The notes below the pieces were generated by a model that was given only the letters and a program-made list of their open reading frames with translations, was not told the DNA's origin and ran no database searches. Below, piece after piece: positions 20,890 to 35,180 of a stretch of 64,000 nucleotides of DNA (position 1 is the first letter of the stretch; each line of letters starts with the position of its first letter). The DNA is taken from assembly GCF_017352215.1 (NCBI RefSeq), contig NZ_CP071444.1:124001-188000 (forward strand). The letters are read 5' to 3'. A program made the position numbers and the translations under genes. The DNA is from Alkalibacter rhizosphaerae (GTDB lineage: Bacteria; Bacillota; Clostridia; Eubacteriales; Alkalibacteraceae).

Positions 20890-21906
20890 TTATTTCTTCA
20901 AGGTAAAAGTAAAAGTGTCCGTATTTCCGTTGATGTCTTCCACCACCACTTCGAACGTTCCCGGAGTGGTGACCATGACGTCGTTGTACTGGAGACTGAT
21001 CTCCCGACCATTGAGGGTCGCTTTCTCCAAAGGATGGAAACTGACAAATTTCAGATAGACCCGGTTTCCTTCCACGGTCCCGCCGCTGATCAGATCCAAG
21101 GGATCATCCACAACGATGCGAGGTCCGAACAAACCGGTTTGCGGATTGTCTCCCGTGTTGGCGTTTCCGTTGGTGTCACCATCATCATCATCATCTTCGT
21201 CATCATCATCGTCGTCTCCATTGGTACCACCAGTTCCGCCAGTACCGCCTGTACCACCGGTCCCACCGGAAGCAGGAGGTATGTAGTCAAATGGGTTTTC
21301 CTTGCCGAAATCCTTGCCTTCGATGAATTCATAATCTTCAAAAGCCGTAAAGCTTTCTCCATCTTTCAAGAATGCATAGGAACGAAGGACGATGTTGGCA
21401 TTGACCAAACCGTCGCTCAAGTTGTAGTTCACCGATTCCACCGTCAGTTTTCTGCCGTTGGTATAGACCAACCGGACAAACTCATCCAGGGTCGCATATT
21501 TGCCGGACAGGTTCATCCGTACATCTATGCTGTTGAGGAAGGTGCCTTCATGCCCTTCCGTTTCCGCTTTCACCGGCAATCCGAAGTCTACGCTTCCCAA
21601 GTCCACGTCGGAGTCTTCCACCTGTTTCAAAAGATCCAGATACAACAAGGGTAGCATGGTGTCTCTTGGTATGACTTCATCCAATTGGTTGGAGAGTTCC
21701 TCGATCCTGGCTTCTTCCACTTCCAAGGTGTTTCCCCGGTCCAGTGCCTGAAGCTCGTCCAAAACCGTCTGGCGTTGGGCCAAGGTAGCCTTATTGGCTG
21801 TCCACTCGTCGTATTTCGGAAGAATCAAATAGTTGATATATAGGAATCCGATTCCCACGACCAACAACAAAGTGACAAGTATTCTTTCCCGTCTGCTCAA
21901 ACTCAT
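20890..21906 (-). CDS. pilO: Type IV pilus PilO-like protein with an acidic linker and an extra C-terminal domain
   Basis: A 338-residue bitopic membrane protein. Residues 1-8 are basic, 9-29 form the membrane helix, a coiled coil follows to ~80, and a ferredoxin-like PilO domain runs to ~190. PilO with PilN and PilM aligns the pilus machine at the membrane. The odd part is the rest: a Gly-Gly-Thr repeat (~213-228), a run of eleven Asp/Glu (231-242), an Asn/Gly-rich bridge, and a ~80-residue beta-rich domain (~262-338) outside the membrane. Family members are usually about 200 residues. It overlaps pilN by four bases and is the last gene of the operon. Confidence 0.85.
   Translation of the reverse strand: MSLSRRERILVTLLLVVGIGFLYINYLILPKYDEWTANKATLAQRQTVLDELQALDRGNTLEVEEARIEELSNQLDEVIPRDTMLPLLYLDLLKQVEDSDVDLGSVDFGLPVKAETEGHEGTFLNSIDVRMNLSGKYATLDEFVRLVYTNGRKLTVESVNYNLSDGLVNANIVLRSYAFLKDGESFTAFEDYEFIEGKDFGKENPFDYIPPASGGTGGTGGTGGTGGTNGDDDDDDEDDDDDGDTNGNANTGDNPQTGLFGPRIVVDDPLDLISGGTVEGNRVYLKFVSFHPLEKATLNGREISLQYNDVMVTTPGTFEVVVEDINGNTDTFTFTLKK
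21178..21270. repeat. Trinucleotide and GGT-codon repeats inside pilO
   Basis: Plus-strand CATCAT/CGTCGT triplets at ~21178-21219 encode the Asp/Glu run, and degenerate nine-base units at ~21220-21270 encode five Gly-Gly-Thr units. Such tandem codons can change length by slippage in steps of three without breaking the frame. Confidence 0.7.
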
Positions 21907-22445
21907 TGCTGATCACCTCCGTTGCTGTACACTAAATTCATGTTGAATTCATAAATATCGTTGTCTGCGGCCCGTACGGAGTTGATCCATACGTTGGAGA
22001 CATTGTCGATCTGGTTCAGTTTGGCGGCAAAATCGGCCACTTCATCCCGTGATTTGGCTACGCCGCTGATGGTCATGGTACCGCTGCCCGTATTTTGCGT
22101 GATAAAGCTGACGCTTTCCGGCAAGGTGGTCTCCACTTTGGTCAACAAGTTGTAAAAGTTGATCTTGTTCACGTCTAGTTCAGATGATCTTTGCTCTCTA
22201 TAAGCCAATTCCTGTTGTTTTTTCTCCACCAGGGTCTTTCTGGCTTGTACTTCCGCTAAAGCGGCGATTTGGTTTTCCACATCCACCAAGTCCCGTTCCG
22301 TTTGACGGTTGAAACTGTACAAGGCTCCGTAGCCCACCAAAAGGAGTGCCAGAACCAGTAAAACCAGAAGAATATTCATGGAACGTTTCTTCTTGACATC
22401 TTTTTTTAGATTGAGATCCTTAGGTAGCAGGTTGATATCGCGCAT
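21903..22445 (-). CDS. pilN: Type IV pilus PilN-like protein
   Basis: A 180-residue bitopic membrane protein. The short cytoplasmic end has INLLPKDLNLKKD, the conserved NLLP motif that docks into PilM. A membrane helix follows (~26-43), then a coiled coil with KQQELAYRE and a ferredoxin-like domain. GGAGGG lies seven bases before the ATG at 22445; a GTG two codons upstream is less likely. It overlaps pilO and sits just after pilM. Confidence 0.9.
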   Translation of the reverse strand: MRDINLLPKDLNLKKDVKKKRSMNILLVLLVLALLLVGYGALYSFNRQTERDLVDVENQIAALAEVQARKTLVEKKQQELAYREQRSSELDVNKINFYNLLTKVETTLPESVSFITQNTGSGTMTISGVAKSRDEVADFAAKLNQIDNVSNVWINSVRAADNDIYEFNMNLVYSNGGDQQ

Positions 22446-22447
22446 GG

Positions 22448-23536
22448 TCACACCCTCCTAACGACGGCGCCGATGGCATCCACAAGGAACGGCACATGAT
22501 TGTTGCTCTTGAGATCTTTGAACGCTACGTTCACCAACCGGTCCACCCACACGGTAGGAATGTTGGTGTAGCGCTGGATGTATTCACCCACGCCGGGGAT
22601 GCAGGACCCGCCGCCCACCAGGAAGATCCGGTCCAGCTTTTTCTGTTTGGACATGGATATGAAAAATTCCAAGACTTGATTTATTTCCATGGTGATGTCG
22701 TAGAGCACGTTGGTGATCTGGTCGTAGAGCATTTTTTCCACTTCGTTGAGTTCCTCTTTTCGGAGAAATGCGAAGTCGTTGTTTCGTTTCCATTCTTCCG
22801 CCTCATCCATGGACATGTCCAGTGCTTCGGATATGATCTTCGTTATATCCCGTCCACCGACGGCCAAAGAACGCTGCAGGAATAATTTCTGATTTTCCAA
22901 TAGGGTGATGCCTGTCTTCTGGTTTCCCAAATCGATGATGGCTATATCCTTGGCTTCCCCACCGTCGGGCAACCGCAAATCGAAACAAGTCACCGGTCCG
23001 TTCACCAACTTGATCAGGGCGTTGGACTGGACGTCCACCACTTCGATCTCCACGTTGTTTCGGTTGAAGATCTCCAGGTACTCGTAAACCATGTTTTTGG
23101 GAACGGCGACACCCTGCATGGTGTTCATCATGACCTCTTCACCGTCTTCGTTCTGGCGCACGAATTCGTCCACCAGGCTGCTGTCCACGATATAGTTTTC
23201 CATCCGGTCCGGCAACAATACGGACATTTCGTACTTGACGGCTTCCTTGAGTTCGTTCATTTCCATTTTTGGAAGATCAAAGGTCCGTATGACCACATCG
23301 CTGGATGAAAGAAGGAGCCTGGCTTCCCCCAACTTCCCGTGCTTCAAAAAGGTATCCACCATTTTCCCCACGGCTTCCGGGTCCGTCACGTTGCCATTAT
23401 CGATGGCTCCGTCCGGTGTGGGCAAGATCTGATAGCCTTCCACCTGGATCTCCCGGTCCCGAAGAGTGGCGGTGACCATTTTTGAATTCTTGCTGCCAAA
23501 ATCAAACACCGTTACTGATTGCTTTTTGCCTAACAA
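22448..23536 (-). CDS. pilM: Type IV pilus assembly protein PilM
   Basis: A 362-residue actin-like cytoplasmic ATP-binding protein. The phosphate loops appear as VFDFGSKNSKMV near the start and in IIDLGNQKTGITL, with FLVGGGSCIPGVGEYI as the adenosine motif. It binds the PilN N-terminus and links the inner-membrane complex to the motor ATPases. A TTG start at 23536 follows a run of six G. The gene order pilM-pilN-pilO is the standard one. Confidence 0.92.
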   Translation of the reverse strand: MLGKKQSVTVFDFGSKNSKMVTATLRDREIQVEGYQILPTPDGAIDNGNVTDPEAVGKMVDTFLKHGKLGEARLLLSSSDVVIRTFDLPKMEMNELKEAVKYEMSVLLPDRMENYIVDSSLVDEFVRQNEDGEEVMMNTMQGVAVPKNMVYEYLEIFNRNNVEIEVVDVQSNALIKLVNGPVTCFDLRLPDGGEAKDIAIIDLGNQKTGITLLENQKLFLQRSLAVGGRDITKIISEALDMSMDEAEEWKRNNDFAFLRKEELNEVEKMLYDQITNVLYDITMEINQVLEFFISMSKQKKLDRIFLVGGGSCIPGVGEYIQRYTNIPTVWVDRLVNVAFKDLKSNNHVPFLVDAIGAVVRRV

Positions 23537-23560
23537 ACTTCATCCCCCCTTTTACGAAGT

Positions 23561-24637
23561 TTACTGCGATTGCGTAAACTCCTCCACGTACACTTGCCCT
23601 CGATTCGCCGGTTCGGTGATCTCCATGGTCAGGTATTCTTCCAACCCTGTCAGGAACTGGGGATCGTACTCCAATTCCAGATCAAGGGGAGTGGACCCGA
23701 AGGTCTCCACCAACCCGAAAACACCATGGATCCGTCCATCCACCATGGAATGGACCTGGCAACCGCTCAAGATCATCATTCCGGTGATCTCCACATCCTC
23801 CAACACCACCCTGTTGCAGCGACGAAGGATCAGAAGTCCCGAAAAACTTCCCCCCACGGTCAGTTCCTCCACGTTTTCAACCACGAACACATCCAAATCA
23901 TCCGGCATGGAACCAAGATCCACAACTTGTGAATATTGATTCCCTTCAATTCCCATTCTATCACCACAACGGTTCTGAAGTAAATAAATAAATTCACCCA
24001 TCATGATGTCGTCGTATAATGGCAGAACAGATGGGTTCAAGACGTAGGAATTATGAAAACTTTCCCAACGGATAGACTCTAAGTATATATTGCCATTTAT
24101 ATGCATGTTTAAACGGTTTGGACCGCCAAAATTGAAAATATTCATATTTTTAAGGGTTCCGATGCCTACCAATGGCGGTGTTGCCCGGATCTTTGCCAGA
24201 TCCTCGATGAAAAGATCCTCTGTAGAATAGATCCCATAGCCGGCCATGTCCTTCAAGGATAGAACAGGCAGGCTTTTGACGACCCTACCGGAAAAATGTC
24301 TTTCCAGTACATTATTTTTCACAAACACGTCCAAAGTTCTTTCGTAGTCGGAAACATAAGAGATCCGGTACCGGTAAGAATGTTCCTCGTTCCAAACAAC
24401 CCAGCCCGAATCCCATGCCGTCGTCCATTCCCTCTCCAATAGTTCCAGGGCAAGTTCCCGGACGCCATAAGCCAATTTCTCCATGGAGATGCTCTCCCCA
24501 TAGTGGACGATGCTTTTGTGGTGGAGGAGGGTCATGGGGGTGAGAAGCAGGGAAAAAAGGGACAAAAAAAGAACCAGCATCAACACCACAAGCAGTATGG
24601 CACCTCTGGTGGATCCGGTTTTCCCTCCCCTACTCAA
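23561..24637 (-). CDS. PilX/GspK-like minor pilin (second set)
   Basis: A 358-residue protein with a hydrophobic N-terminal helix after a short basic leader (STRG then AILLVVLMLVLF). Like GspK and PilX it lacks the Glu at position 5 found in other pilins. The remaining ~300 residues are beta-rich, with repeats such as VTGGSFSGLLILRRC and VEITGMMILSGC that suggest a beta-solenoid. In related systems this pilin caps the tip complex. The TTG start at 24637 overlaps the previous gene by eight bases and has no good ribosome site, so it probably relies on coupling. It closes a FimT-PilV-PilW-PilX series. Confidence 0.7.
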   Translation of the reverse strand: MSRGGKTGSTRGAILLVVLMLVLFLSLFSLLLTPMTLLHHKSIVHYGESISMEKLAYGVRELALELLEREWTTAWDSGWVVWNEEHSYRYRISYVSDYERTLDVFVKNNVLERHFSGRVVKSLPVLSLKDMAGYGIYSTEDLFIEDLAKIRATPPLVGIGTLKNMNIFNFGGPNRLNMHINGNIYLESIRWESFHNSYVLNPSVLPLYDDIMMGEFIYLLQNRCGDRMGIEGNQYSQVVDLGSMPDDLDVFVVENVEELTVGGSFSGLLILRRCNRVVLEDVEITGMMILSGCQVHSMVDGRIHGVFGLVETFGSTPLDLELEYDPQFLTGLEEYLTMEITEPANRGQVYVEEFTQSQ

Positions 24638-25115
24638 GGGTAACCACCGGAGAAGCCGGTGTGACCACTTTGGTCAGGCGATAGACTTGTTCTTCAAAAG
24701 TACTCTCCACGGTCAACAGAACAGTACCGTCTTCCTGGGCTTCCATTTGAAAGGAAGTTATGGGATAGGCCATCTGGGACTTGGATCCCAAACCGATGGA
24801 ACGCAGATTTTCATAGACCTTGTTCTTGTGCAAATAGATCCCCTCCAGGCTATAATAATTGAGATAAACAGGATTTTCCAGATCCCTCAGATACATGGTT
24901 CCATTCTCAACAATGATCCGGTCCGACTGTTCCAGTTGTCGTTCCAGCAGGATCATGGTGTGACGAACGTTGGTTTCCACATCCATCCGGTTGGTCAAAG
25001 CACGTACCGTCTTGAGTTGGTTTCCCAGAATTCCCATGGCCATGCTCCATGCCAAGCTCAGCAAGAGCATCCCTATCAGCAGTTCAATCAAGCTATACCC
25101 TTTGGCTTTCTTCAT
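24630..25115 (-). CDS. PilW/GspJ-like minor pilin (second set)
   Basis: A 161-residue prepilin with the cleavage site KAKG/YSLIELLIG, Glu at position 5 and a hydrophobic helix to ~25. The following region has LERQLEQSDRI and a beta-rich end with DGTVLLTVEST, typical of PilW/GspJ/ComGF-type pseudopilins. Its ATG overlaps the stop of the preceding gene (ATGA). It probably sits at or near the pilus tip together with its neighbours. Confidence 0.78.
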   Translation of the reverse strand: MKKAKGYSLIELLIGMLLLSLAWSMAMGILGNQLKTVRALTNRMDVETNVRHTMILLERQLEQSDRIIVENGTMYLRDLENPVYLNYYSLEGIYLHKNKVYENLRSIGLGSKSQMAYPITSFQMEAQEDGTVLLTVESTFEEQVYRLTKVVTPASPVVTLE

Positions 25116-25471
25116 GGCACATGTACCAGGGTTTGGAGGCCGATTCCATTTTCTTTCTGCCAGACTTCCACTTCCAGGGTCCGATCCTTCCCCTCATAAG
25201 GTTTGATGGTCACCTCATAATATTCACTGCAATGGAGCTGCTCCAAAGCCTCATAGGTCGCAGGTGATGCCGGTCCTTCCTTCAGATCCGATACCACGGC
25301 TTCCAACACTTCCTCCGCCCGATTCGTCTGTTCGTAGCGACTGGACGCCCTGGCCATGGCGGACAAATAAAAGGTAGACATGAATAGAAAAGAAATGGAT
25401 AAAATGCAAAGAATAAAGATGGATACGATGATCTCGATAAACGTAAAACCTTTCACCTTCAGGATGATCAA
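25112..25471 (-). CDS. PilV/GspI-like minor pilin (second set)
   Basis: A 119-residue prepilin with the site KVKG/FTFIEIIVSIF and Glu at position 5. The later part contains YEQTNRAEEVLEAV, a feature of PilV/GspI-type proteins, which have short bodies. The likely start is TTG at 25471, overlapping the stop of the previous gene as TTGA; a GTG five codons later is also possible. It is cleaved by the prepilin peptidase encoded two genes upstream. Confidence 0.75.
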   Translation of the reverse strand: MIILKVKGFTFIEIIVSIFILCILSISFLFMSTFYLSAMARASSRYEQTNRAEEVLEAVVSDLKEGPASPATYEALEQLHCSEYYEVTIKPYEGKDRTLEVEVWQKENGIGLQTLVHVP

Positions 25472-25914
25472 CCCTCTTTCCAGTAAATTCTGCCGCTTCC
25501 GATTTGCACGACAATGGTTTTCTTGGTTCCTGATTTATTTTGGAAGGTGATGCTTCCACCGGAACTGACGGTGCCTTCCGGATAGAAGATCAATTTTTTG
25601 CTGCTGTAGGTGTTGGTGACCAAACGCAGGTTCTCATGATAGGGTATTTTTTCCGTCGTAGTGCCGGAAGGAGTGACGGTCTGAAGATACATGCAACTGC
25701 CGGATACAAGGACCTGCCGCTTCCGGCCATCCAGGATGGTCTGGTTCCTTGCCTCCACCAGACTCTTATGGATCACCCGGATATCCTGGTCCAATGCCCG
25801 CTGGTCTTTGATGGTGGAAAACACGTTTGACCCAAAACCGGCCACAGCAAGCAAGATGCCCAGGATCCCAACCACCACCACAAGCTCCAGATAGGTGATC
25901 CCGCGGTTTTTCAA
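25468..25914 (-). CDS. FimT/GspH-like minor pilin (second set)
   Basis: A 148-residue prepilin with the site KNRG/ITYLELVVVVG, Glu at position 5 and a helix to ~28. The body has IHKSLVEARNQTILDGRKRQV and beta strands like those of GspH/FimT. It is the first gene of an H-I-J-K-like series of minor pilins. TTG at 25914 overlaps the pilD stop (TTGA), again pointing to coupled translation. Confidence 0.8.
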   Translation of the reverse strand: MKNRGITYLELVVVVGILGILLAVAGFGSNVFSTIKDQRALDQDIRVIHKSLVEARNQTILDGRKRQVLVSGSCMYLQTVTPSGTTTEKIPYHENLRLVTNTYSSKKLIFYPEGTVSSGGSITFQNKSGTKKTIVVQIGSGRIYWKEG

Positions 25915-26669
25915 AGGAGGAAGCCCAAATACCAGCTGATGAGGTTGGAGCCGAAATACAGGGTCGTCAGAGCCGCCAGGGCGATCCAGGGACCAAAGGG
26001 TATGGCATCCTTCCGCTTTTTGATTTTAGTCGCCAAAAGTACTACTCCAAAGAACCCCCCGTAGATAAAGGACAGAAACAAGGTCAACAGGGTATGCCAC
26101 AGTCCCAGATAGAGGCCCAGTACAAACATGAGTTTCACATCCCCCATGCCCATGCCGGCACCACCGGTGAGGAGGACCAGTAGAAACAAGGGTATAAATC
26201 CAGCCAAAGCGCCAAAGACGGCATCCTTCCATGGGATGAAGCCCAGGGCCAGGTTGGCGACGACAAAGATCACTAGCAAAAAGACATTCAGTTCATCGGG
26301 TATGATCTGATGATCCAGGTCGATGAAGGTCATGGCAATGAGGACTGCCACAAAGACAAGGTGGACCAAGAGCATCCAGGAGAGACCAAACTGCAGATAG
26401 GTGAATAAAAACAAAAACCCCGTCAACAACTCTACTAACGCATACCGAGCCGGTACCTTGGCCTTGCAATAGCGACATTTCCCTCCCAGCATCAACCAAC
26501 TCAAAACGGGAACCAGATCCACCGGTTTGAGCGGTGTCCCGCACTGGGGACAGTGGGAAGGCGGCGATGCAATGGACTGCCCTTCCGGTAGCCGATAGAT
26601 CACCACATTCAAAAAACTCCCAATCAACAAACCGAATACAAATACGACGAACATGTAATACCATTCCAT
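25911..26669 (-). CDS. pilD: Prepilin peptidase
   Basis: A 252-residue membrane aspartic protease that removes prepilin leaders and may methylate the new N-terminus. The N-terminal GSFLNVVIYRLP motif is followed by two Cys pairs (CPQCG and CRYCK) that form the zinc-binding loop, several membrane helices, and the catalytic Asp residues in DLDHQIIPDELN and GMGDVKLM. AAGGGG precedes the ATG. One peptidase gene serves both minor-pilin sets and the major pilin here. Confidence 0.94.
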   Translation of the reverse strand: MEWYYMFVVFVFGLLIGSFLNVVIYRLPEGQSIASPPSHCPQCGTPLKPVDLVPVLSWLMLGGKCRYCKAKVPARYALVELLTGFLFLFTYLQFGLSWMLLVHLVFVAVLIAMTFIDLDHQIIPDELNVFLLVIFVVANLALGFIPWKDAVFGALAGFIPLFLLVLLTGGAGMGMGDVKLMFVLGLYLGLWHTLLTLFLSFIYGGFFGVVLLATKIKKRKDAIPFGPWIALAALTTLYFGSNLISWYLGFLL

Positions 26670-26750
26670 GATGTCAACCCCTTACATTACTTCCTGATTT
26701 CTTTTTCTCCATCTTACCATGATTTCCTTCAAAAATTTTAGAGAGGAATA

Positions 26751-26778
26751 AAAAAACTCCGGCAAGTTGCCGAAGTTT
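26751..26778 (-). terminator. Terminator after the first minor-pilin set
   Basis: A 12-bp stem (26767-26778 with 26754-26765, one wobble) has a one-base formal loop and is followed by T-rich sequence on the minus strand. It separates the PilX-propeller-PilW genes from the pilD operon, so the two sets are transcribed separately. Confidence 0.8.
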
Positions 26779-26799
26779 TTAAAAAATTTCATTTAAAAT

Positions 26800-27264
26800 T
26801 TATTCATAGTAGATCACCGAACCGCTTCCCGGCGTAGTGTTTGTTATGTTGTTTAGTAAAACATTGGTATCGATTTGATAATTGTTTTCTCCAGATGCAT
26901 CGCTTCCTTGGATCGTGTAGGATACCATATAATGAGTACCGCTATTTACGATTTCAAAACTTATTCCATTGACCAAAGGATACTTTGCCGAAAGAGATGT
27001 TAAATCCATACTGTCCGCCAATGCATTGTCTGTGGTGCTGATTTCATCCACATTTCGCAATTCTTTCGTCACATATTGGGAAGCCATACGTACGTCAAAC
27101 TGCACCTGGGAAAGTGCTGTACCTTTGTTGTATAGGCTGTTGTTAAAGAAAAAGAAGCTAAAGATCGCACCCAGGATCAAAATTGCTATGGCAAGAGTGA
27201 TGACGAGCTCAACCAACGTCAGACCTTTTCTGTTTTCACGAAACCATTTTTTTGTCATTTTCAT
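26800..27264 (-). CDS. PilW-like minor pilin (first set)
   Basis: A 154-residue prepilin with the leader ending NRKG/LTLVELVITLA, Glu at position 5 and a long hydrophobic helix ending in FSFFFFNN. The region VQFDVRMASQYVTKELRNV matches PilW-type proteins, and the rest is beta-rich with many Asn, Ser and Thr. The ATG at 27264 has GGAAGA upstream. It follows the propeller gene by six bases. Base composition is more AT-rich than in the second set. Confidence 0.78.
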   Translation of the reverse strand: MKMTKKWFRENRKGLTLVELVITLAIAILILGAIFSFFFFNNSLYNKGTALSQVQFDVRMASQYVTKELRNVDEISTTDNALADSMDLTSLSAKYPLVNGISFEIVNSGTHYMVSYTIQGSDASGENNYQIDTNVLLNNITNTTPGSGSVIYYE

Positions 27265-27270
27265 CGCCTA

Positions 27271-28818
27271 TCATCTTCCTACAACAGATTTCAAATCTAC
27301 ACCAAGACCTGTTGTCGGGATCCAACTTGTTCCATTGTTGGAATATAGAACTGTTCCGCTATCTCCGACAATAATATAATTTGTTCCACGTGCATGGATA
27401 CTTCTTAAACTGTTTGTTCCAACGTATTGGATACTCCAGTTACTTCCTCCATCAACGGAAGTTAAAATCAAACCATTATCTCCAACCGCAATAAAACTAC
27501 CGTTGAAATATATAACATCATTGATATTTCCAACAGACGCTATTGTACCTGTTGTCCATGTGCTGCCATCGGATGAAGAAACGATTCGTCCATTATCTCC
27601 AACACCGATCAGTAAATTACTGCCACTATACGCACCGGAAGTAATTGCACGCAAGTCATCGCTTATATTCGTCACAGCTTCATTCCATGTAGAGCCGTTT
27701 GAAGAATACAATAATCTTCCGGAATCACCGACGGCATTCAACACATACGTACCAGCAAAGTCGGTAGAAACAATATCGTGAAGGGCATAACTCATACCAG
27801 TATCCGGTGTGCCGGGATCATAGTTGTTCGACCAAAAGCTACCATCCGACGATGAATAGATCCTGCCATCTCTTCCCACTACATAAAACTTCTCATACTG
27901 CGATGACCATGCAACCCCAAGAAGATCTTCCGCTGATACAGACGTTCTGGTCCAAGGTTCTAAGTCATGAGACAGTAAAAACAAACCATCGTCTCCTACT
28001 ACAGCATAAGATGTTCCATTGCTTGCCGATGCGTTGATTACACTTGTAACAAGTCCGTTTAAACCGATCTTAGAAGATCGATCCATCCAAGTAATATCAG
28101 TTATCGTTCCTTCCAATTCAGTAACGAAGACAGATGTATTCCCGATGGCCAAAAAGTCCGGTTGATCTACACGAAACTTTGCTCGCGCCAACTGATCCGG
28201 TTTTCCTGATATGGGGGTTCGTACACGAACGATGAACTCATTACTCAGCAAATGATCATAATAGTAGTTCCATGAATAACTGGGATCCACAGTATTTGGC
28301 AGTGTAAAATTCAAAGATGTATCACTGGAAACCGTTGGAGTGTTGATGGTTGCCAAAACGATACTTCCAAACTTGTCCAACAATTCCACCGTTGTGCTTC
28401 CACTTGTAAAATTTGTATTTTCACCATTCACCACGATTGTTCTGTTCTGATATCCTTCGGATTTAGACGTCGGATCGATGGATATGGTCGGAACCTTTGG
28501 CAAAAACGTGACCAATTTAGAATCCTTGTCTCCAACCGTCTGTTCGGATTCAACCAATCCACCTTCGATGGTAACATCTGTTCCACCAAAATCGATCACC
28601 AAATCCTGACTGGCTCCTGCATCCTTTGTTCCCAATCTCGTTTCGATATCTCCTTGCGCATTGCTATATGCTTCTCCACGATCTCCTGCTCCAAATATCC
28701 AAAGGATGGATGACGTAAAGAGAGAAATGAAAAGTATGGCCATGATCGCAAATACAGCCACCGCAATTACGACCTCGATCAAGGTCATTGCGTCTTTATT
28801 TTTTATCCGTTTTATCAT
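27271..28818 (-). CDS. Modular PilV-type minor pilin with an IPT-like domain and an Asp-box beta-propeller
   Basis: A 515-residue protein, three to four times the size of a usual minor pilin. The leader ends KNKDA/MTLIEVVIAV, with Ala rather than Gly at -1 and Glu at +5, then a hydrophobic helix to ~43. Residues ~109-202 look like an IPT/TIG Ig-like domain (VVNGENTNFTSGSTTVELL). From ~222 to the end there are six clear and one weaker repeats of the type VGDxGxIxxSxDGxxW, the Asp-box pattern of sialidase or YCF48-like propellers. It is likely displayed at the pilus tip as an adhesin or sensor. AGAAGG is seven bases before the ATG at 28818. What the head binds is unknown. Confidence 0.82.
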   Translation of the reverse strand: MIKRIKNKDAMTLIEVVIAVAVFAIMAILFISLFTSSILWIFGAGDRGEAYSNAQGDIETRLGTKDAGASQDLVIDFGGTDVTIEGGLVESEQTVGDKDSKLVTFLPKVPTISIDPTSKSEGYQNRTIVVNGENTNFTSGSTTVELLDKFGSIVLATINTPTVSSDTSLNFTLPNTVDPSYSWNYYYDHLLSNEFIVRVRTPISGKPDQLARAKFRVDQPDFLAIGNTSVFVTELEGTITDITWMDRSSKIGLNGLVTSVINASASNGTSYAVVGDDGLFLLSHDLEPWTRTSVSAEDLLGVAWSSQYEKFYVVGRDGRIYSSSDGSFWSNNYDPGTPDTGMSYALHDIVSTDFAGTYVLNAVGDSGRLLYSSNGSTWNEAVTNISDDLRAITSGAYSGSNLLIGVGDNGRIVSSSDGSTWTTGTIASVGNINDVIYFNGSFIAVGDNGLILTSVDGGSNWSIQYVGTNSLRSIHARGTNYIIVGDSGTVLYSNNGTSWIPTTGLGVDLKSVVGR

Positions 28819-28847
28819 GTTCACACCTTCTAACTGTATACTTGAAT

Positions 28848-29912
28848 TCAATTGATCCATTTATATCCTGTATACCTAACTCCCACACCAGAAGTGTCTA
28901 TGTTGAAACCATCCATGCTGCCGTTGTAAACTATCGTAGTGTAGTTGTGGATCATGACATCTTTTGCAATGATGATCCCATCCAAAACCTTGCTTGGATC
29001 GTTACCTGTGGAATTATTATAATCAACAAGTCGAAGGGGTGCGTAGATACCTACATTTGTAAACGTCAAACCGGAACCTGCCATGCTAAAAGCATCTGTT
29101 CCCATCGCGTAGATGTAAAGTTTTGAACCATCTGCAGTGATCGATCCCTTCAATTCCACAACACCGTCGACATACAGATGCACTTCTCCGCCTCCAGTGA
29201 TCATGATTTTTTCGTTATCATTTCCTAATTTAACGCTGGAAGCATACAAAATCAACTCTTCACCTGCATTGACATTGATCAAATATCCATACTTTTCTTT
29301 TCCGGAGTAAGTGTAATCACTCAAGTCTCCATCGTATGATGCTGGCTCTTCAATGGGCGGCAAGTCCGTTATGGACGTGTGCCCTTCTTCGTATACAACC
29401 TTGTCATTTAAATCGATCTCATCCGTTATGGAAGCTATTTCACCACCAGTAATGGTTGCTCCATTACCGTTACCGTCATTAGATATGATATTCTTTGCCA
29501 ATATTGCAAAATCAAACAAACCACCAAGGGATTCTTCCAGCTGTATCTTGACAATGTCTTTCTTCCCGTTAAAAGTCCCTTCCGAAGTAATAACGATGGC
29601 ACCTGTTGTTGCATCCTCATCGACACTGACTCTAAATTCTCCGTTTCCTATTTGAGAATTTGGTGCAGAAAATCCCGCATCGATCAAGTCATCGGCATCA
29701 TCATTTCCGTCTTGTATCATATATTCCGCAATAGCCTGTGCGCCTGATCGTGCAACATAATATGCTTGCAACTGCTCTTCATTGTGTTTTGCAAATGTAT
29801 TTTCGGATACACTGACCCGCAGGATGGAAACGCCTAATACCATCATGATCATCATGACGACAAGCACCGTAACCAATGCGGATCCTCTGTTTTTATAGAT
29901 ATACTTTTTCAT
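28848..29912 (-). CDS. PilX-like minor pilin with a beta-rich body (first set)
   Basis: A 354-residue protein with the leader KNRG/SALVTVLVVMMIMMV and no Glu at position 5, as in PilX and GspK. The region AKHNEEQLQAYYVARSGAQAIAEYM is the PilX N-terminal domain signature. The remaining ~280 residues carry repeats like VHLYVDGVVELKGSITADGS and LYIYAMGT, suggesting a beta-solenoid. GGAGG lies before the ATG at 29912. It is the first gene of the set and would start tip assembly for the propeller pilin. Its paralogue in the second set ends at 23561. Confidence 0.8.
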   Translation of the reverse strand: MKKYIYKNRGSALVTVLVVMMIMMVLGVSILRVSVSENTFAKHNEEQLQAYYVARSGAQAIAEYMIQDGNDDADDLIDAGFSAPNSQIGNGEFRVSVDEDATTGAIVITSEGTFNGKKDIVKIQLEESLGGLFDFAILAKNIISNDGNGNGATITGGEIASITDEIDLNDKVVYEEGHTSITDLPPIEEPASYDGDLSDYTYSGKEKYGYLINVNAGEELILYASSVKLGNDNEKIMITGGGEVHLYVDGVVELKGSITADGSKLYIYAMGTDAFSMAGSGLTFTNVGIYAPLRLVDYNNSTGNDPSKVLDGIIIAKDVMIHNYTTIVYNGSMDGFNIDTSGVGVRYTGYKWIN

Positions 29913-29952
29913 TTCGATTCCTCCTCGAAATAACATCCACTTTATCGTAAAC

Positions 29953-29958
29953 ATTATA
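29953..29958 (-). promoter_or_regulatory. Possible -10 box for the first minor-pilin set
   Basis: A perfect TATAAT on the minus strand lies 40 bases before the PilX-like ATG. The -35 position (29976-29981, TGTTTT) is weak and overlaps the T run of the terminator just upstream. Confidence 0.4.
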
Positions 29959-29969
29959 CCCCAAATTTA

Positions 29970-29999
29970 TAAAAAAAAACAGCAATCAAAATTTGCTGT
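29970..29999 (-). terminator. Terminator upstream of the first minor-pilin set
   Basis: A 7-bp stem (29993-29999 with 29979-29985, ACAGCAA type) with a seven-base loop is followed by nine T on the minus strand. It ends transcripts coming from the pilin side and directly follows the 71-codon open frame. Confidence 0.8.
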
Positions 30000-30004
30000 C
30001 TAAA

Positions 30005-30220
30005 TCAAGGATCTTTTATGGCTAATGCAACAATAGAATAAGTCATTTCAAACTTTTCCTCTCGAACTAACTTAGTAGAATCCTTAATGGAATTCTTTAA
30101 AAGTATATATTTTGATTTAATTTGGTATTTATCATAATCGGTGATTGTCAAATTGGTTGTCGTTTCTCTTATGAATCGATTCAGCCAAAAAACTTGTTCT
30201 ATGGTACAGTTATGAACCAA
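30005..30220 (-). other. 71-codon open frame, possibly a gene remnant
   Basis: The frame opens with TTG after an in-frame TAG about ten bases upstream and ends at 30005, five bases before the terminator stem. It has no clear ribosome site. The peptide (FIRETTTNLTITDYDKYQ, then REEKFEMTYSIVALAIKDP) is not recognised. The close fit to a strong terminator suggests it is the 3' end of something once transcribed; a short translated gene is possible but unsupported. Confidence 0.3.
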
Positions 30221-30739
30221 TCTAACTATCTATCTGGATTTTTTACCTTTGCAACTTCCAGTATTGCTCTCTGTTTGCCAAAGAATTGGTGTCGAGATTT
30301 CTTAGTCTATTATTCTTCTACATAATCGCGATAATTAATTTTCCCAAAATATCTTATTATCTAAGAATTACTTGAAATCAATGTGATATATTCCTTGATA
30401 ATTAATTAGCTTATGAAAAGCCTTGTTTGCCCAAGGCTTCGAAGTTCTTTTTCTTCTATTTGATCAATTTGTCTTAAAATTCTTTACTGTAGGTAGCCAC
30501 GGAATTCTTCACTCTTGACCACTTGCATAGCATATAATATTTTGATCACCTGACAGATATCCAAACTAAGGGGCAATAATTTTGTTAGATTTCTTCAGTC
30601 ATAAAATTTATTAAAACAAATGACCCCTGTTTATTTCAAGGATCACTTGTCAATTGATATTTTAAATTTTCCTTTAATCACTTTTCACTTCTTAGTATGG
30701 TTTGATGTTTTGATCTAAAAAATCTTTATCACTATAAAC
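30221..30739. other. AT-rich intergenic stretch without a recognisable gene
   Basis: About 520 bases with many stop codons in all frames. On the minus strand short open pieces occur, for example codons around 30594-30484 ending EEFRGYLQ then TAA, which look like a decayed coding sequence but match nothing recognised. A hairpin lies at 30418-30439. With the frame at 30005-30220, this makes an ~800-base gap between the major pilin gene and the first minor-pilin set. Confidence 0.5.
30418..30439 (-). terminator. Weak hairpin, possible end of the major pilin transcript
   Basis: A 7-bp stem (30433-30439 with 30418-30424, AAGCCTT type) has an eight-base loop and is followed on the minus strand by only four T. 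It is the first hairpin noticed downstream of pilA, some 300 bases after its stop. Confidence 0.4.
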
Positions 30740-31084
30740 CTATGGCCTAGCTGGTGTTGTTCCAGTTAAATTACCATTAGCATCTACGGCAATTGCGGTA
30801 ATGGCATTCCCATCTGACCAAGCAGAACCTGGTTCTAAATAATTTGGTTCCAAATCAGCTAATGCTGGAATCGCACCATTATTATCTGCCATATACAAAG
30901 TAACAGCGCTTTGTATCACTCGCTCAGTCGCATCATCAGCAGTAGTTCTAGCATTGTTAAGTGTACCAAGAAATCTAGGTACTGCTATTATTGCTAAAAT
31001 AGCCAAAATCGCAATTACAACGATCAACTCAATAAGCGTGAAACCTTTTCTGTTCTTAAACAATTTCTTTCGGATGCTTAACAT
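30740..31084 (-). CDS. pilA: Major type IV pilin
   Basis: A 114-residue prepilin with the textbook leader NRKG/FTLIELIVVIA, Glu at position 5 and a hydrophobic helix to ~40. The body is short, with ARTTADDATERVIQSAVTLYMADN and a C-terminal beta region ending TTPARP. No Cys pair is present, so there is no disulfide-bounded D region. GGGGGA precedes the ATG. It has its own strong promoter with an overlapping dyad, which fits a highly expressed main subunit. It lies between pilC and the minor pilins. Confidence 0.9.
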   Translation of the reverse strand: MLSIRKKLFKNRKGFTLIELIVVIAILAILAIIAVPRFLGTLNNARTTADDATERVIQSAVTLYMADNNGAIPALADLEPNYLEPGSAWSDGNAITAIAVDANGNLTGTTPARP

Positions 31085-31122
31085 TATTATTCCCCCTAAT
31101 TTAAATTTATGAAACTAAATTT

Positions 31123-31154
31123 CTATGACAATTATATATCCATAATTATCATAG
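31123..31154. promoter_or_regulatory. Dyad overlapping the pilA promoter, candidate operator
   Basis: CTATGACAATTAT (31123-31135) and ATAATTATCATAG (31142-31154) form an inverted repeat of 13 bases with one mismatch and a six-base gap. It spans from about the start point to the inner edge of the -35 box. A bound dimeric regulator here would block RNA polymerase. The protein is not known. Confidence 0.55.
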
Positions 31155-31159
31155 TTCAA
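31131..31159 (-). promoter_or_regulatory. Promoter of pilA
   Basis: TTGAAC (31159-31154) and a perfect TATAAT (31136-31131) are 17 bases apart on the minus strand. The expected start near 31124 gives a ~40-base leader, too short for a riboswitch. Confidence 0.75.
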
Positions 31160-31176
31160 TCATTATTTTGTAATTT

Positions 31177-32391
31177 TTATGAAATAATGCTATAAAGATC
31201 GAACATTGGAAGAAGCATACTGATAATTATAAAGGCTACGATGATCCCTAAAACGACGATGATGATCGGCTCGAGGATGGTGGTCAGCTGGCTGATAGCG
31301 GTGTCCACTTCCGTTTCATAGAAGTCAGAAACTTTGCCAAGAACGTAATCCAAAGTTCCGGAAGTTTCCCCTACCTCAACCATCTGGTACACCAAGGGCG
31401 GGAATGCTCCGTTGTTTTCCATGCTGGCTCCTAGACCAAATCCTTTTCGGATCCCGTCTTTGACATCCCACAGGCTTTCTCGAATGTACTCGTTGCCTAC
31501 GACTTTTTCCACGATATCCACTGCCTGGATAATATCAACCCCTGCAGTCAACATGACTTCCATGTTGCTGGCAAATCGGTTCATGGCGATCTTGTTGTTC
31601 AACTCTCCGAATGCGGGGATTTTCAACTTGATCTCATCTACCTTGAGACGTCCCTGCTTTGTACTGACATATCGCCTATACAATAGGATGGCAGCACCAA
31701 TAACCAAAATATATACATACCAGAAATTTTTAATGCTGTCACTAATAGCTATGAGTGCTTTTGTAGGTCCCGGCAGCTCCGCATCAAAGGATGCAAACAT
31801 GGTAACGAAGGTCGGCACCACGAAAGTAAGCAGTAAGATAACCACGGAAACGGCGACTATGGATACGACGATCGGGTAGGTGATGGCGCTCTTCACCTTC
31901 TGGTTGATTCGGTATTCCTTTTCAAAGTGGTAGGCCATCTTGTCCATGACTTCATCCAGGTTTCCGCTGACCTCCCCCGTTTCGATCATGTTGACCAGAA
32001 TGCTTGGGAAGATTTTAGGCTCCTTTGCAAAGGCACTAGATAGACTGTTCCCCTTTTGCACGTCTTCGTGCAAGGCTTCCACTACTCTTTGGAGTTTTTT
32101 GTTCGTAGATTGTTTCTTTAAAATATCCAAGCTGTCCACTACCGTGATGCCGGAGCGGAGCGTTGTAGCAAATTGTCGGCAAAATAATGCCAGATCCCTC
32201 AACTTCACTTTTTTTTCAAAGAATGTGACATCCGTGCTCAACTTGCTCTTTTGTCGTTCTTCTTTTATTTCCACCGGAATGTAGCGCTTCTCCCGGATCA
32301 GGCCGACGACCTCGTCCTGGGTTGCGGCTTCAAAGGTACCCTTGATGGTTTTTCCGTTCATGTCTTTGGCCGTATAAGAATATGTTGCCAT
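31177..32391 (-). CDS. pilC: Type IV pilus platform protein PilC
   Basis: A 404-residue inner-membrane protein of the GspF family, which turns under the motor ATPases to add or remove pilins. Two GspF domains are visible, each starting with a helix bundle (FCRQFATTLRSGITVVDSL and FASNMEVMLTAGVDIIQAV), with membrane helices near 170-190, 220-240 and at the C-terminus. A run of six G precedes the ATG. It follows pilT by 22 bases and ends ~90 bases before the pilA start, inside which the pilA promoter lies. Confidence 0.94.
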   Translation of the reverse strand: MATYSYTAKDMNGKTIKGTFEAATQDEVVGLIREKRYIPVEIKEERQKSKLSTDVTFFEKKVKLRDLALFCRQFATTLRSGITVVDSLDILKKQSTNKKLQRVVEALHEDVQKGNSLSSAFAKEPKIFPSILVNMIETGEVSGNLDEVMDKMAYHFEKEYRINQKVKSAITYPIVVSIVAVSVVILLLTFVVPTFVTMFASFDAELPGPTKALIAISDSIKNFWYVYILVIGAAILLYRRYVSTKQGRLKVDEIKLKIPAFGELNNKIAMNRFASNMEVMLTAGVDIIQAVDIVEKVVGNEYIRESLWDVKDGIRKGFGLGASMENNGAFPPLVYQMVEVGETSGTLDYVLGKVSDFYETEVDTAISQLTTILEPIIIVVLGIIVAFIIISMLLPMFDLYSIIS

Positions 32392-32413
32392 GTTGCGATC
32401 CCCCCTTTTTTTC

Positions 32414-33478
32414 CTATACCATCATGCGTTTTCGCATGGCTTCCTGGTCTACGGAGTAGAACAGGGCATTGTCCATGCTGATGACTCCTTTGGAATACAG
32501 ATCATATAAATAGCTGTCCATGGTGACCATGCCTGCTTTGCCACTCATTTGGAGTATGGAATTGATCTGGTGGTTCTTTCCTTCCCGGATCAGGTTTCGG
32601 ATAGCTGGGTTGGCGATCATGATCTCCAAGGCCACGATCCGTCCATGTCCGCTTTTCTTGGCCAACAACTGTTGGGATACAACGGACTGGATGACGCTTG
32701 CCATCTGGGTCCGTACCTGTTGCTGCTGATGAGGCGGAAAGACGTCGATGACCCGGTCAATGGTCTTGGCGGCACCAATGGTGTGCAGGGTGGATAGGAC
32801 CAAGTGGCCTGTTTCTGCCGCCGTCAGTGCAATGGCGATGGAATCCAGGTCCCGCATCTCCCCTACCAGAATGACATCCGGGTCTTCCCGAAGGGCGGCT
32901 CGTAGAGCATCCTGATAGCTGGTGGTGTCCTGGCCGATCTCCCGTTGGTTGACCATGCTTTTTTTGTGACGGTGAAGGTATTCGATGGGATCCTCCAAGG
33001 TCAGGATATGGGCGCTTCGCTCGCTATTGATGATGTCGATCATGGAGGCCAGGGTGGTGGATTTACCACTACCGGTAGGACCCGTAACCAAAATCAATCC
33101 CTTGTTGATCCTCGTCAGTTGTTCCATGGTCTTTGGCAGGTTCAACTCTGCCATGGTTGGGATCCCGGAACCGATGACCCGTAGAGCTACGGTATAGCTG
33201 GTCCGCTGCTTGAAGGCGTTGACCCGGAACCGTCCGTACCCGGACCAGGAATAGGAGAAGTCCACTTGTCCCGTTTCTTCCAGGGCTTTTCTCTGGCTGT
33301 CGTTTACCATGGCCGTTGCCAGCTGTTTCGTCTCGTCCTGGGTATAGGGAGCAATGTCCCATAAAGGATGGAGCTCTCCGTCGATTCGGATCATGGGTGG
33401 CAGCCCTACAGTGATGTGCAGGTCGGAAGCCTTGCTTTCAATAGTCGCTTTGAGCAGTTGGTCGATATCGTTTTTCAT
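32414..33478 (-). CDS. pilT: Twitching motility ATPase PilT
   Basis: A 354-residue hexameric retraction ATPase. Walker A is GPTGSGKSTTLASM, the Asp box and Walker B are in LTLEDPIEYLH and VILVGEMRDLDSI, the His box in HLVLSTLHTIGA, and AIRNLIREGKNHQI is the PilT-type C-terminal motif. Its presence shows that the pilus can retract and separates this locus from competence-only comG systems. ATG at 33478 has GAGGTG upstream; a GTG three codons earlier is less likely. It lies 13 bases after pilB. Confidence 0.95.
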   Translation of the reverse strand: MKNDIDQLLKATIESKASDLHITVGLPPMIRIDGELHPLWDIAPYTQDETKQLATAMVNDSQRKALEETGQVDFSYSWSGYGRFRVNAFKQRTSYTVALRVIGSGIPTMAELNLPKTMEQLTRINKGLILVTGPTGSGKSTTLASMIDIINSERSAHILTLEDPIEYLHRHKKSMVNQREIGQDTTSYQDALRAALREDPDVILVGEMRDLDSIAIALTAAETGHLVLSTLHTIGAAKTIDRVIDVFPPHQQQQVRTQMASVIQSVVSQQLLAKKSGHGRIVALEIMIANPAIRNLIREGKNHQINSILQMSGKAGMVTMDSYLYDLYSKGVISMDNALFYSVDQEAMRKRMMV

Positions 33479-33491
33479 TTGCTTCACCTCG

Positions 33492-35180
33492 TCATTCTGA
33501 TGTAAAGAACGTGATTTCCAGTGTTTCTTCGATGGATGTGACTCCTTGAAGGATCAAATCCCTGGCGTTTTCCATAAGGGGGATCATGCCGTCCGCCTTT
33601 GCCTGGTCCAGCAATTGGTCGTAAGTGGCGCCGGTTGTGATCATTTCCCTCATGTTCCGGTTGATTTTGAGCACTTCATGGATTCCCATACGTCCCTTAT
33701 ACCCAGTATTGTTGCATGCAATACACCCTTTTGGTTTAAATATGATAATTTTTTCACCCGGATCCACTCCAAGCATCTTCTTTTCGTGGTCGTTGGGCTC
33801 GTATTCTTCTTTGCATTTGACGCAAAGTTTCCGGATCAAACGCTGGGAAATGATGCCGTACAGGGAGGACGATACCAGGTAAGGGGGTATCCCCATGTCC
33901 ACCAGACGACTGATGGTGCTGGCTGCGTCGTTGGTGTGGATGGTACTGAAGACCAAGTGGCCTGTGATGGAGGACCGGATGGCGATCTCTGCCGTCTCCA
34001 CGTCACGGATCTCCCCGATCATGATGATGTCCGGGTCCTGCCTTAAGATGGAGCGAAGGCCACTGACAAAAGTCAAACCTGCTTTTACGTTGACCTGGAC
34101 CTGGTTGATCCCGTCCAGCTTGTACTCTACCGGATCTTCCACCGTAACGATGTTATCCGTCATGGTGTTCAGGTTGCGTATGAGTGTATACAAGGTGGTG
34201 GACTTACCGCTTCCGGTAGGGCCCGTCACCAAAATAATGCCGTAAGGTGCAGAGATGAAATCTTGGATCATGGGCATCTCTTTCTCTGTAAATCCCAGAT
34301 CGGACATCCGCATTTGAAATTGGGCTTGGTCCAGGATCCGAATGACCACTTTTTCCCCATAGATGGTGGGAAGGATGGAAACCCGAAAGTCGATGTCCCG
34401 GTTGTCGATGCGCATGACAATGGCCCCGTCCTGGGGGATCCGCCGTTCTGCGATGTTCAGATCAGAAATGATCTTGATCCGGCTGACAATGGCGTTGTGG
34501 GTACGGACATCCAGCTTCATCATTTCCAGCAGGACCCCGTCCACCCGCATCCGGACACGGATCCGGTCGGCAAAAGGTTCGATGTGGATGTCACTGGCTT
34601 TGCTGCGCACCCCTGTTTCAATGATGTTGTTGACCAGACGCACCACGGGAGCGTTGTTGATCTGCTCCATGTTGTCTGCCGTGGTCTGGTCCAACTCCTC
34701 CAGGCTTTGGGACCGGTTGAATTCCTCCACGGCCCGGGCGGCGTCGTCCGTATTGTAGAAACGTTCGATCAGGTCGATGATCTCCCGCTTTGTAGCAATG
34801 AGTGGAATGATGTGCTTTTTCGTCACCAGGCGAAGGTTGTCCAATGCGATGATGTCCAGCGGATCATTGATGGCCACCACCAGGTTGTCCATGGTGTCGT
34901 AAAAAAGCGGAACGGTTACATGCTTCTTAGCCAGCACGTAAGGAATGGACTTGACTGCTTCCTTGTCCACAAAAGTATTTTCAAAATCCACCCGGGAGAT
35001 CCCCAACTGCTGCTTCAGGGCCTCGATGATGTCGTCTTCATCCACATACCCTTCTTCCACCAGAAGTTCTCCCAGCTTGTTTTTCTTTGCCTGTTGAAGC
35101 TTGATGGCTTCCGTCAGTTGTTCTTCCGTCAATTTTCCGCTGGAAACCAGGATGTCTCCGATCCTCTTTACGCTTCTCAT
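33492..35180 (-). CDS. pilB: Type IV pilus extension ATPase PilB
   Basis: A 562-residue GspE-type ATPase that powers pilin addition. An N-terminal MshEN/GspE N-domain (ILVSSGKLTEEQLTEAI and DEDDIIEALKQQLG) is followed by Walker A GPTGSGKSTTLYTL, VEDPVEYKLDG, Walker B IIMIGEIRDVET, the zinc Cys set (CVKCKEEY and CIACNNTG) and a short C-terminal domain. AAGGTGAGG precedes the ATG. MshEN domains can bind c-di-GMP in some relatives; whether this one does cannot be seen. It begins the pilB-pilT-pilC unit. Confidence 0.95.
   Translation of the reverse strand: MRSVKRIGDILVSSGKLTEEQLTEAIKLQQAKKNKLGELLVEEGYVDEDDIIEALKQQLGISRVDFENTFVDKEAVKSIPYVLAKKHVTVPLFYDTMDNLVVAINDPLDIIALDNLRLVTKKHIIPLIATKREIIDLIERFYNTDDAARAVEEFNRSQSLEELDQTTADNMEQINNAPVVRLVNNIIETGVRSKASDIHIEPFADRIRVRMRVDGVLLEMMKLDVRTHNAIVSRIKIISDLNIAERRIPQDGAIVMRIDNRDIDFRVSILPTIYGEKVVIRILDQAQFQMRMSDLGFTEKEMPMIQDFISAPYGIILVTGPTGSGKSTTLYTLIRNLNTMTDNIVTVEDPVEYKLDGINQVQVNVKAGLTFVSGLRSILRQDPDIIMIGEIRDVETAEIAIRSSITGHLVFSTIHTNDAASTISRLVDMGIPPYLVSSSLYGIISQRLIRKLCVKCKEEYEPNDHEKKMLGVDPGEKIIIFKPKGCIACNNTGYKGRMGIHEVLKINRNMREMITTGATYDQLLDQAKADGMIPLMENARDLILQGVTSIEETLEITFFTSE

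Follow-up and report, generated by a model that had tools for sequence, protein, structure and literature searches.

The window analysed here, a stretch of 64,000 nucleotides, carries a type IV pilus locus in which one 515-residue protein joins a prepilin leader and helix to a C-terminal Asp-box β-propeller. With a probability of about two in three, this propeller pilin is a modular minor pilin in the PilV/GspI position presenting a ligand-binding propeller on the tip of a type IV pilus that can be retracted. The leader would be cut by the prepilin peptidase of the locus, the N-terminal helix would pack with PilX/GspK-like and PilW/GspJ-like partners into a tip complex, and the putatively seven-bladed propeller would be held out at the tip as an adhesin-like, ligand-binding head. 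A single polypeptide would then do the job that is divided elsewhere between a pilin and a separate PilY1.

The propeller pilin and its locus

The pilus locus occupies the minus strand of positions 20890–35180, on which all features given below by window coordinates are located. Its genes follow in the order PilB/PilT/PilC-like, PilA-like, PilX-like, propeller pilin, PilW-like, PilD-like, a second minor-pilin set, and PilM/N/O-like. The names PilB, PilT, PilC, PilD and PilN are presumptive and are backed by conserved gene order in relatives. The genes for the platform and for the retraction and extension ATPases (pilC, pilT and pilB-like, 31177–35180) were assigned from open reading frames and synteny in relatives; the PilT-like ATPase implies that the pilus would be retracted. 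The major-pilin-like gene (PilA, 30740–31084) scores 40.1 bits with N_methyl, the ComGC and GspG models staying below cut-off. The prepilin peptidase-like gene (PilD, 25911–26669) was recognised from its reading frame and relatives, and the pilM, pilN and pilO-like genes (20890–23536) include a PilM_2 match at 1.2e-36, with PilO/T2SSM below cut-off.

The propeller pilin gene itself (27271–28818) was defined by its reading frame, profiles and an AlphaFold2 model. On one side it is flanked by a PilX/GspK-like minor pilin of 354 aa (28848–29912; start chosen behind GAGGAGG, the longest reading frame reaching 29954), which is above cut-off for PilX_N (31.9 vs 25.5) and DUF7305 (30.5 vs 27) and below it for GspK (3e-7). 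On the other side lies a PilW/GspJ-like minor pilin of 154 aa (26800–27264), above cut-off for N_methyl and matching the W profile of this triad at 7e-43, a score to which the protein contributed as one of the seeds. These matches bear out the PilX- and PilW-like neighbours named in the first-pass annotation; the interval drawn there, 26800–28818, holds the propeller pilin and the PilW-like gene, whereas the PilX-like gene falls just outside. Its view of the three genes as a second, separate set also held, as the same locus has another minor-pilin set at 23561–25914 (GspH 25468–25914, V2 25112–25471, W2 24630–25115 and X2-like 23561–24637).

Translation from the start just downstream of AGAAGG gives 515 residues, and the longest reading frame 529. 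The basic leader MIKRIKNKDA (residues 1–10, 28789–28818) is followed by MTLIEVVIAVAVFAIMAILF, with cleavage predicted after Ala10. The helix carries Glu at mature position 5 and a hydrophobic stretch of 21 residues. NCBIfam TIGR02532 is above its cut-off (17.4 vs 16.3) and Pfam N_methyl falls 0.2 bits short (21.0 vs 21.2), in agreement with the pilin leader and helix initially read from the 515-residue protein. Residue −1 is Ala; the remaining 11 sequences aligned over the pilin module carry Gly there, in L083 one column away. The pilin module (residues 11–107, 28498–28788) ends in an FLP motif and was aligned with four stand-alone pilins of about 115 aa. For the PilV (TIGR02523) and GspI (TIGR01707) models, no match to the propeller pilin was listed at E ≤ 0.01; three relatives (L083, L084, L103) match both, each below cut-off. 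The PilV/GspI position is given by gene order, the propeller pilin being placed between PilX/GspK-like and PilW/GspJ-like genes in all nine genomes that have one. Homology to GspK/I/J-type and PilX/V/W subunits suggests a position at the pilus tip.

The head comprises residues 223–515 (27274–28152) and was delimited with Asp-boxes, AlphaFold2, Foldseek and VIA-align. The strict pattern S-x-[DN]-G-x(2,3)-W occurs five times, at 323, 372, 415, 454 and 493, while 20,000 shuffles of residues 226–515 gave a mean of 0.044 and a maximum of 2. Blade-like units also begin at 274 and, in degenerate form, at 225, which brings the total to seven. In viral contigs no relative was found, and a contig scan with the common pilin pattern returned, among the matches listed, the protein already known from G176 (L103) and one of other architecture (L104). 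As these scans added few relatives, the alignment used for structure prediction had two rows. On this basis AlphaFold2 modelled residues 271–500 at block pLDDT values of 56–87 and the region of blade 1 (residues 223–268) at about 25–44. The first eight Foldseek hits comprised six YCF48-titled chains, a designed propeller of seven blades and a chain from an entry with the title RCII/PSI complex, with TMt values of 0.57–0.70 for the YCF48 and designed matches. VIA-align gave Z scores of 22.5–23.6 over the 50 rows listed, with matches to seven-bladed structures spanning residues 221–515; as these matches are spread over unrelated propellers, they support the fold and not a family. Structure prediction, proposed in the first pass as a check, returned a propeller over residues 271–500 with YCF48-titled matches. 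The earlier count of about seven Asp-box blades stood in part: the five strict motifs exceed chance and residues 271–500 are modelled, but blade 1 was not confirmed.

Among family models, Pfam DUF6242 exceeds its cut-off in three stretches (38.8 vs 29 bits, E 1.2e-9), and PSII_BNR/YCF48 (PF14870) stays below in the propeller pilin (21.6 vs 27 bits) and above in a relative, L086 (39.8 vs 27). No PilY1 domain (PF05567) was detected in the protein by hmmscan at E ≤ 1. DUF6242, the Asp-boxes and the propeller model together represent an extra C-terminal domain that is not specific to type IV pili, which is the mark of a modular pilin according to PMC8179133. Between module and head, residues 108–222 (28153–28497) form an undefined linker domain, lacking a profile match and modelled at low pLDDT. 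The IPT-like domain originally placed here found no support: Pfam, TIG included, gave no match at E ≤ 1, a five-row profile gave no match in the PDB at E ≤ 5, and residues 101–235 modelled alone from the single sequence reached a mean pLDDT of 36.9. Conservation is also lowest in the linker: across nine sequences its mean pairwise identity is 21.5%, whereas the propeller reaches 29.0% and the pilin module 31.9%.

Recurrence of the head on a shared gene triad

Leader proteins with C-terminal Asp-box repeats, the search for which had been suggested from the sequence, were found in at least eight more Bacillota genomes. With the protein as query, propeller pilins were identified in at least four of 391 class-drawn genomes (the window's own, G000, together with G108, G176 and G221) and in at least six of 398 phylum-drawn genomes (G000, G478, G516, G582, G661 and G771), i.e. 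in at least nine distinct genomes from six families; loci were examined for the best matches only, which makes these counts lower bounds. All nine proteins are encoded in a single frame of 491–575 aa with leader and Asp-box repeats, and each of the other eight genomes has at least one pil assembly gene within the fetched stretch. Several of these loci seeded the X, V and W profiles, hence the profile scores are not independent evidence; the gene order is. Among 61 close relatives, G000 alone has a propeller pilin, a match in G052 being devoid of a leader. Among the loci fetched, 38 further ones contain an Asp-box reading frame with no recognised leader; L035, which begins at a contig end, could belong to either group.

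A profile restricted to the pilin module led, from its best-scoring short matches, to 24 further genomes in which V is a protein of 108–163 aa with no head. W adjoins V in all 24, and in 22 they are accompanied by X, both misses lying near contig ends; at least three of these genomes (G720, G761, G467) show the order V, W, X. Four aligned short V proteins stop at an F-[LI]-P-like motif, past which the headed proteins continue. As the same position holds a short headless pilin in 24 genomes, the head is best described as an addition.

In six of the 24 unheaded triads W is 489–971 aa long. Pfam recognises fn3 in two of these proteins, Flg_new together with aBig_2 in a third and Flg_new_2 in a fourth, and finds nothing above cut-off in the last two; where repeats can be named, they are of fn3, Ig-like or InlB-like type. 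Mutual exclusion of heads on V and W was considered and is at most suggestive (a W of at least 489 aa occurs in 0 of the 9 headed triads and in 6 of the 24 without a V head; two-sided Fisher test, p 0.16). Distant minor-pilin sets (L144–L158) include long V-like pilins of 369–628 aa with other heads, and in several of these sets W also measures 422–527 aa and X just 127–171 aa. Ten long V-like proteins, those of L145, L155 and L157 among them, were scanned as candidate propellers and none matched a propeller family: L155 has CarboxypepD_reg/SpaA, L157 has TIG, and seven have N_methyl only. In L145, a LamG/ConA-like domain matches weakly and below cut-off, and a Pfam receptor-binding family with that fold falls just short of its own. 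In G582 and G516 (L085, L086), another PilB/PilC-like pair lies within a few kilobases of the propeller triad, followed in L085 by a second minor-pilin set.

A tree was calculated for 25 triads (the nine headed and 16 others; eight of the 24 unheaded were omitted, mostly for cut or split genes). It groups G108, G176 and G221 (UFBoot 100), G478, G516 and G582 (UFBoot 100), and G661 with the W-headed G637 (UFBoot 96), and it places the window triad in a clade (UFBoot 91) beside four triads with headless V. Presence of the V head requires five changes on the best tree; over 1000 bootstrap trees, five changes were counted on 722, four on 264 and three on 14. Five or fewer changes occurred in 37 of 1000 label shuffles, indicating that the heads cluster above chance. 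The backbone is weakly supported and gives no direction of gain versus loss. On the shared triad, the propeller head appears to have been acquired or lost repeatedly, in three to five changes. The tree of propellers only is poorly resolved, and the head nearest to that of the window is not discernible from it. Tentatively, and with the odds leaning against it, the X–V–W triad might be viewed as a chassis that Bacillota use generally for the pilus tip, with a head that is exchanged in evolution: an Asp-box propeller at the end of the pilin fold of V in some lineages, and in others extensions on W that are fn3, Ig or InlB-like or unassigned. As a counterpart of the PilV–PilY1 pair in a single protein, the propeller form would then have arisen separately and been moved or lost three times or more.

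In the genome of the window, the triad is bordered by an intrinsic terminator behind it (26752–26780; 13-pair stem, −16 kcal/mol, z −5.0) and by a terminator-like hairpin in front of it (29977–30001; −9 kcal/mol, z −3.15). Also in front of the triad is a −10-like TATAAT (29953–29958) that was read from the sequence, for which no −35 was found and which is absent from the promoter scan list. Neither type of site is in excess in the region (3 terminator-like sites vs 2.7 in shuffles, 17 promoter sites vs 15.8). A decayed transposase remnant, IS3-like by genes, lies between pilA and the triad (30163–30573), with 72–79% collinear identity to six other places in the same genome; one of these copies (L167) carries rve and HTH_Tnp_1 genes. 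The GC content over 26500–30000 is 0.39–0.44 versus 0.45–0.54 in the flanking pil genes, that of pilA being likewise low (0.35–0.39). The pil clusters of G002 (same genus) and G003 (same family) have no triad between pilA and pilD. In G002, its place is taken by one additional small pilin together with a DUF5658 membrane protein (L018:9401–10057). No triad was present in the stretches fetched from G004 and G005, and the propeller pilin had no match in G001–G005. For G001, of the same genus and listed as complete, neither PilB nor PilD of the window gave a match, and the pilus locus may have been lost there. The low GC, the transposase piece, the flanking hairpins and the TATAAT and GAGGAGG motifs fit a cassette that would have been acquired and would be transcribed separately.

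Role of the propeller head

Propeller columns kept in at least eight of nine rows are structural in kind (G, W, V, A, L, the Asp-box S and one D), and no set of polar residues resembling an active site is found among them. Conserved positions of this type speak more for a binding surface that varies than for a conserved enzyme; the missing invariant polar residues might also be due to chance in nine divergent, weakly aligned sequences. Counting against a modular pilin at the tip are the Ala at −1, the N_methyl score 0.2 bits short, and the poorly modelled blade 1 and linker.

Rather improbably, the propeller could be an assembly or priming part that steadies X–V–W or stops full retraction and binds no outside ligand. 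The head does accompany a conserved triad, and pilus extension in M. xanthus requires PilY1 as well as minor pilins, with a proposed cork function (PMC7541494). Conversely, V is headless in 24 triad genomes, so the triad as such can do without the head; 18 of these 24 are also devoid of a W of at least 489 aa. Asp-box propellers occur in glycosidase and sialidase-like enzymes, and the best match of the protein to such a family, the NCBIfam model F510_1955 glycosylhydrolase (NF045728), is weak. At 30.2 bits against a cut-off of 175, however, the similarity is attributed to the shared repeat, and apart from the S and D of the Asp-box the nine rows share no set of acidic residues or arginines; an enzymatic head is hence quite unlikely. 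We give equally little credit to the triad as a separate, pseudopilus-like secretion device in which the propeller handles a secreted substrate away from the motility-pilus tip, for although X resembles GspK, hairpins on both sides of the triad suggest a separate transcript and the locus has another complete set of minor pilins, a second PilB/PilC was not seen within the window's locus and the fetched stretches of G108 and G176 show the triad alone as minor-pilin set beside pilB, pilC, pilT and pilM.

For the preferred assignment, a modular minor pilin with its propeller displayed at the tip, the packing of the helix and the exposed head are most likely by analogy with PilB and PilC of S. sanguinis and with the PilVWX–PilY1 complex.

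Comparison with known systems

Modular pilins are already known: a 2021 survey reports more than 1,200 of them in 264 architectures (PMC8179133), and the propeller it mentions is that of PilY1. No pilin with an Asp-box head was described in the literature searched, the list in Dataset S1 of PMC8179133 lying outside it, and no YCF48–pilin fusion was found there as judged by titles. The Asp-box propeller head is apparently an undescribed variant, that dataset aside. The first-pass statement that no such pilin is known therefore agrees with the literature searched, but the implied rarity is tempered by the 264 modular architectures of that survey; the architecture itself recurs in at least eight more genomes. 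PilC/PilY1 is reported absent in monoderm bacteria (PMC9934059); matches to PF05567 were 0 of 14 in chosen genomes and 0 of 249 in phylum genomes, with control genomes also at 0 of 14 both times, so that these counts do not establish absence of PilY1, of which the first pass had seen none. A recurrent propeller head on a PilV-like subunit is a defined candidate for pilus-tip specificity in monoderms. Moreover, headed and unheaded triads provide a natural comparison for the role of the head and for a possible substitution of PilY1 by a fused propeller.

YCF48 acts in photosystem II assembly. The YCF48/PSII_BNR and DUF6242 propellers share the Asp-box repeats with the window protein and differ from it in having no pilin leader. 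The GspK–GspI–GspJ tip complex of type II secretion is alike in its three subunits, whereas the family models stay below cut-off here and GspI is not known to carry a head. Also close are two working modular pilins of S. sanguinis, PilB and PilC, whose heads are of the vWA and lectin kinds (PMC8179133, PMC9934059). Like the window protein they combine a class III leader, a small pilin module and a bulky C-terminal head, and they belong to a monoderm type IV pilus with a proposed tip complex of minor pilins; in PilC, moreover, pilin and head are separated by an Ig-like domain. The heads themselves differ, vWA and a ConA-like lectin in S. sanguinis versus an Asp-box propeller in the window protein. 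PilY1/PilC with PilV, PilW and PilX, as presented in PMC7541494, likewise combines a propeller with the same minor pilins and is proposed to sit at the tip, the propeller pilin being set apart from PilY1 by a prepilin leader in place of a Type I signal peptide.
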